From positions 248,001 to 312,000 of the forward strand of contig NZ_BAPV01000004.1 in NCBI RefSeq assembly GCF_025995175.1: a stretch of DNA of 64,000 nt. Reading direction: 5' to 3'. Both the position numbers and the translations under genes were made by a program. Within the stretch, counting starts at the first letter, position 1; the number at the start of each line of letters is the position of its first letter. Below are positions 36,354-37,439 of the stretch, one piece after another. The stretch comes from Asaia krungthepensis NRIC 0535 (GTDB lineage: Bacteria > Pseudomonadota > Alphaproteobacteria > Acetobacterales > Acetobacteraceae). Under the pieces are notes generated by a model. It ran no database searches. It saw only the letters and a list, made by a program, of their open reading frames with translations, and was not told the DNA's origin.

Positions 36354-36655
36354 TACTTCACGCTTTCTTTTCTTGGAGCCTTATATCACATCCCTGTCTC
36401 GGTTTTTTTACGAAACGTATTCTCCACCCCAGCATCGCGCGCAGTTGAAGGAAAAACGATAGTGCCGAGAGTGTGCTTGTCGCGGGTAACCCCTGGGGAA
36501 GAAACTTAAAGTAAATCTTCATTCTTGCCAGCATAAAGGAGGTGAAACTCTCGTTTGCGCGAGGGCAAAATGACTTACTAACAACAACGATCTTAGAATG
36601 ACTTGCGAGTATTGCAACCGATCAGGGGGAACAGAAAAAATTGAAACCTCCCCCC
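36354..36655. other. non-coding gap between the regulator and tRNA-Arg
   Basis: About 300 bases, more AT-rich than the neighbourhood. It holds a minus-strand TATAAG box (36380-36385). There is also a perfect-looking ribosome site AAAGGAGGTGA near 36535-36545, followed only by a three-codon or 19-codon frame. I cannot support a gene here; a regulatory RNA or leader peptide is possible but unproven. Confidence 0.4.
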
Positions 36656-36694: not shown

Positions 36695-37009
36695 GTCCGC
36701 GTAGCTCAGCAGGATAGAGCACAGGATTCCTAGATTAATTGGGCGCCATGCTTGGAAACTTCATGGTGGATCTGCTCAAATTCGGGGAACGCTCTGGTCA
36801 TCAGACCGTGCCAATCCCGAGCCAAACATAGTCGTGATCGCGGCTATGGAGGTGTAGAGACTGTACGGGCAGCGCCTGTCGTCCGGCTCATCCCGGACCA
36901 GGGCGAAGAGACAGTCCAGACCACGAACGACACGCATTGCGTGTCGGCGGCGAAAGCCGAAGTGGTATGAATCCTGGGGCCGTGGGTTCGAATCCCGCCG
37001 CGGACACCA
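36695..37009 (+). tRNA. tRNA-Arg (anticodon CCT), split by a group I intron
   Basis: The 5' exon (36695-36731) gives the acceptor strand GTCCGCG, the D arm GCTC...GAGC, and the anticodon stem CAGGA with loop TTCCT. The 3' exon (36970-37009) gives AA plus TCCTG, the T arm with GGTTCGAATCC, and acceptor CGCGGAC, discriminator A and an encoded CCA. All stems pair perfectly, and the spliced loop reads TT-CCT-AA, so the anticodon is CCU. The 238-base interruption follows anticodon position 36, the same site used by the known alphaproteobacterial tRNA-Arg(CCU) introns. The tRNA cannot work unless the intron is removed. Confidence 0.95.
36732..36969 (+). ncRNA. group I self-splicing intron (IC3-like) in tRNA-Arg(CCT)
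   Basis: The 238-nt intron starts after exon U36731 and ends in the required omega-G (36969). P1: exon CCU pairs with intron GGG (36741-36743) through a U-G wobble at the splice site, extended by A36732-U36740. P4 pairs UCGGG with CCCGA (36782-36786, 36816-36820). P7 pairs GACTGT (36859-36864) with ACAGTC (36911-36916). The guanosine-site stretch GGTGTAGAGACT and the block AATCCCGAGCC match the Azoarcus-type IC3 core. P9-type hairpins include GACACGC-ATT-GCGTGTC (36929-36945) and a GAAA tetraloop. No homing-endonuclease ORF is present. Confidence 0.93.
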
Positions 37010-37154: not shown

Positions 37155-37439
37155 TCAGAAAGCCACCGCCGTCATCTCGGGCGCGAACAATGCATGCAGA
37201 AGCAGCGCCAAAAGTACGATGGCAATCAGCACACCGAAAAGTCGACCGAAAAGGCGGAAGCAGACAACCACGAGCAGCAGAAGCAGCAAAGCCAACAAGG
37301 CTGTCTGGACCTGATGCGGCACGCCCAGTGCCTGAAGTCCTCTACGGGCCCATTCTTCAATAACAGCGATCACAGAAACGATCAGCGTGAATAAACCGAT
37401 AATAAGACCAGTAATAACTGCAATAGTACTCTGTATCAC
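37155..37439 (-). CDS. small two-helix membrane protein, unknown
   Basis: A 94-residue hydrophobic protein with TM segments at about residues 5-27 and 46-85 (the second long enough for two helices separated by CFRLFGRLFG), and a charged linker (IEEWARRGLQ). No family recognised. It lies between the tRNA and the symporter gene, on the opposite strand to both. The hydrophobic composition supports a real gene; start and function are uncertain. Confidence 0.5.
   Translation of the reverse strand: MIQSTIAVITGLIIGLFTLIVSVIAVIEEWARRGLQALGVPHQVQTALLALLLLLLVVVCFRLFGRLFGVLIAIVLLALLLHALFAPEMTAVAF

Follow-up and report, generated by a model that had tools for sequence, protein, structure and literature searches.

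The window analysed here, a stretch of 64,000 nucleotides from Asaia krungthepensis NRIC 0535, carries a split tRNA-Arg(CCU) gene on the forward strand (36695-37009). It is almost certainly a working gene with a small, endonuclease-free and self-splicing group I intron, which lies between tRNA positions 36 and 37 and was kept by descent in Asaia. Three observations lead to this reading: the exon and intron boundaries, a covarying intron core and the finding of no other CCU gene. The significance of the split gene lies mainly in annotation. Default tRNA and Rfam scans overlook the sole CCU gene of the genome, and tRNA counts and codon-use studies in acetic acid bacteria can err by one gene.

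The split gene and the structure of its intron

The coordinates given in the original prediction are correct to the base, as judged by the sequence and by ARAGORN. The 5' exon (36695-36731) ends with the anticodon C34 C35 U36 (36729-36731) and is identical in the ten nearest loci. The 3' exon (36970-37009) contains the discriminator A and an encoded CCA (37007-37009). Joined together, both exons form a tRNA of 77 nt and regular shape: the acceptor stem has seven pairs, the anticodon is CCU and the CCA is encoded. When introns were allowed (option -i), ARAGORN reported a tRNA-Arg(cct) over exactly 36695-37009, in agreement with the two predicted exons, and the exon-plus-intron pattern occurs once against 0 expected occurrences. 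The expectation that routine searches overlook the gene was borne out: ARAGORN without introns listed 0 tRNAs in the whole window, a default Rfam scan of the window listed nothing, and the split CCU gene is not among the 43 matches of the Rfam tRNA model in the source genome. According to a 2021 paper, tRNAscan-SE is not designed for the detection of tRNAs with group I introns (PMC8450103). A promoter scan gave a single weak site (36570-36599), and no terminator was found.

The intron comprises 238 nt (36732-36969), and its last letter is the omega-G (G36969). The group I covariance search proposed with the original prediction matched RF00028 at 36726-36936 with 34.5 bits (E 6.1e-7, permissive settings, 901-base stretch), and the default Rfam scan remained empty because this score lies under the gathering score of 50. 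The match is the only one of RF00028 in the source genome. Although it scores under the curated cut-off, it excludes a missing group I hit, one of the objections named with the original prediction. An ORF of at least 80 aa was not found within the 238 nt, which agrees with the predicted lack of an endonuclease. From the literature and from resemblance, the intron would be placed in an IC3-like subgroup; its small size without large insertions is consistent with IC3.

All structural elements lie on the forward strand and are named after the general group I plan. The internal guide sequence GGG (36741-36743) forms P1 with the CCU of the 5' exon and places G36741 opposite U36731 at the splice site, as read from the sequence. 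It is followed by the P2 hairpin with a GAAA loop (36744-36768), in which 6 of 6 pairs are changed on both sides. The 5' strand of P3 (36772-36777) pairs with 36867-36872; four of its six pairs are changed on both sides and 99.4% of the cells are paired. Within the P4-P5-P6-P6a domain (36782-36853), P4 (36782-36787/36815-36820) and P6 (36821-36823/36851-36853) are invariant and P6a (36827-36832/36843-36848) covaries in 6 of 6 pairs. P7, by analogy the putative guanosine-binding helix, consists of a 5' strand (36859-36863) and a 3' strand (36912-36916), located within the letters GACTGT (36859-36864) and ACAGTC (36911-36916), with five pairs and 100% of the cells paired. P8 (36873-36905) and P9 (36921-36965), the latter with two inner hairpins of which one has a GAAA loop, were delimited by the alignment of relatives.

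This alignment contains 26 related introns, 15 from tRNA-Arg(CCU) and 11 from other tRNAs. Its predicted consensus comprises 51 pairs, of which 30 show changes on both sides; once P7 is added manually, such changes affect 31 of 56 pairs. The variable P7 pair is G-C in 20, A-U in five and U-A in one of the introns. P4, P6 and the four other pairs of P7 are invariant and therefore provide no covariation evidence. Overall, 96.0% of the cells are paired, compared to 82.6% in shuffled and 31-43% in slid versions of the alignment, and 0 of 500 shuffles were as high as observed on any of five measures. The introns thus share a conserved core with the pseudoknot of P3 and P7. The single sequence folds more stably than 100 of 100 dinucleotide shuffles (z -3.4). 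In its minimum-energy fold P3 and P1 are not formed together as drawn, which is expected for a pseudoknotted core and provides no confirmation of it. A chance resemblance to a group I intron is ruled out by the expectation of 0 for the pattern, the covariation and the stability of the fold. Sequence and covariation therefore agree with the predicted group I intron of 238 nt with P7, a U at the 5' splice site and a terminal G.

Copy number, inheritance and decoding of AGG

The source assembly (3.5 Mb, 64 contigs) is rated 99.99% complete. A second, intact tRNA-Arg(CCU) gene, an objection raised together with the original prediction, was looked for in three ways and not found. Of the 43 regions fetched from the source genome, ARAGORN assigned tRNAs in 42, with one UCU and no CCU among them. 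A search of the same genome with the joined anticodon-arm pattern yielded no intact CCU copy and one match with two mismatches, whose letters are not those of tRNA-Arg(CCU). With the joined 77-nt sequence no intact copy was found in any of nine Asaia genomes, where the search returned the separate exons and lower-scoring matches to other tRNAs. In these nine genomes no CCU gene other than the split one was found. As the assembly consists of 64 contigs and some tRNAs (e.g., Ile) are missing from its tRNA list, a small chance of an unassembled second copy remains. A plasmid search returned a leuS match only.

The intron model finds the intron in all nine Asaia genomes. The exons are unchanged in all of them, and intron divergence reaches about one fifth. 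The gene is flanked by a BTAD-domain regulator on one side and by a 94-aa protein and a dicarboxylate symporter on the other, and all three neighbours are also located beside the intron gene in eight other Asaia loci and in Swaminathania. The ORF of the 94-aa protein (37155-37439, reverse strand) adjoins the tRNA, is conserved in the other Asaia loci and Swaminathania and has no Pfam match.

By its tRNA, its insertion position and the lack of a long ORF, the intron belongs to the alphaproteobacterial tRNA-Arg(CCU) family. Some match to the split gene was seen in 53 of 60 relatives from a mixed sample, and within the bacterial family both full-length split genes and intact genes occur. With the intron model R1 (E 0.001 or better), 116 of 249 family, 53 of 385 class and 42 of 398 phylum genomes had a match; these samples overlap, and a few of the matches are weak and partial (two among the family genomes, four with less than 20 bits among the class genomes). 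When named genomes were scanned with a pattern, at least 80 loci were revealed, including Agrobacterium, Bartonella, Azospirillum, Komagataeibacter and Gluconobacter. Among the matches listed, 79 of 80 can be spliced cleanly at this position (after U36), and the introns of these 79 loci share 69.5-87.7% identity with the window intron.

The proposed vertical retention is supported within Asaia, where the intron is kept by descent, but across the family and the class its presence is patchy. This patchiness would fit a recently arrived mobile element that was not inherited, as would the intact CCU gene, confirmed by ARAGORN, in 19 of 20 sampled relatives' loci without an Arg intron match (the remaining locus is a tRNA-Lys) and the HNH-like ORF in one relative intron from another family. 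With the intron located between the same genes in nine of nine Asaia genomes and in Swaminathania, and with only 238 nt, too few for an ORF of its own, a recent arrival is nevertheless very unlikely.

By analogy with the intron family, splicing in this cell would proceed by the two-step chemistry of group I introns. The precursor would fold and the guide GGG would pair with the CCU of the 5' exon. A guanosine bound in P7 may then attack after U36, and the freed U36 would attack after the terminal G, so that the exons are joined. The predicted product is a normal 77-nt tRNA reading AGG. This codon accounts for 79 of 16,630 codons in the 38 mechanical ORFs of at least 200 aa in the window. AGG is thus rare, so any limit on its reading would touch few codons. 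The tRNA-Arg(UCU) may also read AGG by wobble.

The rarity of AGG and the presence of tRNA-Arg(UCU) in the source genome would also be compatible with a dead gene, in which the intron no longer splices and AGG is read by tRNA-Arg(UCU), and decayed copies do occur in the wider family. Such a loss of function is, however, hardly to be expected for a gene whose exons are identical in nine Asaia genomes although the introns differ, and whose core helices are maintained by compensatory changes; we regard it as very improbable. It was also suggested that splicing might limit AGG translation. If a host protein such as a synthetase or an RNA chaperone were needed, splicing could be regulated in this way, but the UCU tRNA may cover AGG. 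According to a study on Bartonella, proteins presumably assist group I introns in vivo, whereas the Bartonella relative self-splices without protein (PMC7717549). Protein-dependent, regulated splicing is unlikely, though the most plausible of these alternatives, and a working, self-splicing tRNA-Arg(CCU) gene is the preferred interpretation.

Related introns at other tRNA sites

For a census of insertion sites, we used 178 model matches, drawn from the family and class scans and including four genus loci. Eleven matches were left out (nine from the class, two from the family, mostly weak or partial) and another partial match of 17 bits was also removed; one intron is split over two of the 178 rows. 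Sites were set by exon words which demand a U before and a G after the intron, so that both letters are no independent evidence. In total, 170 rows were assigned to Arg(CCU) (106), Leu(UAA) (33), Thr(GGU) (11), Lys(UUU) (9), Leu(CAA) (4), Lys(CUU) (3), Arg(UCU) (2) and Thr(CGU) (2), and eight rows have no assignment. The insertion points are 36/37 for Arg(CCU), Thr(GGU) and Thr(CGU), 34/35 for Leu(UAA) and Arg(UCU), 35/36 for Lys(CUU) and 33/34 for Leu(CAA); Lys(UUU) is also a site. Examples of sites other than Arg(CCU) are the loci L153, L226, L227, L230, L231, L233, L235, L238, L240 and L244, among others. A tRNA-His(atg), proposed by the splice-junction script for many loci, was rejected as an artefact of joining four intron-end bases. 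The automatic choice of ARAGORN also varied.

From this census we consider it probable, with considerable reservation, that one ribozyme family has settled at eight or more anticodon-loop sites in Alphaproteobacteria, with an own guide at each, that moves between sites are rare and old, and that several of the sites are apparently unreported. Retargeting could perhaps have occurred by reverse splicing. If this is true, the family would be a natural record of ribozyme retargeting. If the census holds, it offers closely related natural ribozymes with different guides and tRNAs for studying how group I introns change their target.

The guide could be placed in 158 of the 170 assigned introns. It is GGG in each of the 100 Arg(CCU) introns with a placed guide (106 were assigned in total), GAGT in 28 of 30 Leu(UAA) introns, a word beginning with GCC in 10 of 10 Thr(GGU) introns and a GAG-containing word in 11 of 11 Lys introns. 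Each site class has its own guide word. Using a loose pairing score, guides reached a mean of 3.14 with their own exon compared to 2.57 with other exons, and for the Arg(CCU) guides the Thr exons outscored the cognate one. When only the position next to P2 was accepted for the guide (147 of 170 introns examined), the own exon ranks first in four of eight site classes. This cross-pairing test is blurred because the exons share letters.

A quick tree was calculated from 165 cores without guide and P2, with few well-supported branches (19 of 160 starred) and long-branch warnings. Site changes on this tree number 15, compared to a least possible number of 7 and a shuffled mean of 56.6, and 0 of 200 shuffles were as low. 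For 147 of 165 cores, the nearest core by similarity belongs to the same site. Where a genome contains two assigned introns (13 examined), the pair is in every case less alike than each intron is to a same-site intron elsewhere. Therefore, the sites mostly appear to represent separate old lineages and not recent copies within a genome.

Several members of the family are unusual. An intron of about 700 nt in an alphaproteobacterial tRNA-Leu(UAA) (L253:191-895) contains, on its opposite strand, an ORF of 154 aa that weakly matches HNH_3 (20 bits, cut-off 24.8) and may encode a homing endonuclease. In four tRNA-Leu(CAA) loci with an intron at 34/35 (L206, L394, L398 and L406), a C apparently occupies the 5' splice site, so that C-G replaces U-G as judged by eye. 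Two genomes outside the class contain three tRNAs with related introns each, by eye Arg(CCU), Leu(UAA) and Ile(CAU) in G815 (L401, L403, L412) and Leu(UAA), Leu(CAA) and a CAU tRNA in G990 (L402, L406, L408). Second, decayed copies were observed in G044 as an intron in a degraded tRNA-Leu remnant (L251) and in G199 as an Arg(CCU) intron gene of which only the 3' half is present (L232). In one genus (L024, L208), the introns are located in a Leu-like tRNA with an anticodon loop that departs from the usual seven bases, and they are without a site assignment.

Comparison with known tRNA introns

The intron class and the orthologous split gene in Asaia are already known, and the statement in the original prediction that the class has been described agrees with the literature on alphaproteobacterial tRNA-Arg(CCU) introns and on Asaia bogorensis. 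The alphaproteobacterial tRNA-Arg(CCU) intron was reportedly found first in Agrobacterium tumefaciens, in work attributed to Reinhold-Hurek and Shub in 1992 and Paquin et al. in 1999. The A. tumefaciens intron shares the tRNA, the splice position and the core with the window intron (77.1% and 78.0% identity for two records); the differences, in length and in the peripheral loops, are not substantial. The title of the 1999 work is said to concern transposition of the Arg(CCU) intron, so part of the spread over sites may already be known.

In the literature consulted, Leu(UAA), fMet, Ile(CAU) and Arg(CCU) are named as sites of bacterial group I tRNA introns, and several of the eight sites of the census were not found in a search of open-licence PubMed Central papers. 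Cyanobacterial tRNA-Arg, -Gly and -Lys introns of 22-49 nt are reported as group I in one paper (PMC5733544); they seem too short for a group I core. The introns of Azoarcus tRNA-Ile(CAU) and cyanobacterial tRNA-Leu(UAA) show what is probably the same general IC3 design, with insertion in the anticodon loop (PMC3984707, PMC4033280). In contrast to the window intron, they are located in other tRNAs and at other positions. BbgpI of Bartonella bacilliformis is described as a group I intron with demonstrated self-splicing, and the tRNA-Arg(CCU) gene that carries it had no annotation (PMC7717549). It occupies the same tRNA site in a different host, and its splicing is experimental whereas the window intron is known from sequence. 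The split tRNA-Arg of Asaia bogorensis NBRC 16594 (3,198,265-bp genome) appears in a footnote to Table 1 of its publication; the same footnote marks a split tRNA-Arg for Acetobacter, Gluconobacter, Komagataeibacter and Gluconacetobacter (PMC4596401). The A. bogorensis intron is the orthologue of the window intron in a different species, located at the same site and next to the same neighbour genes.
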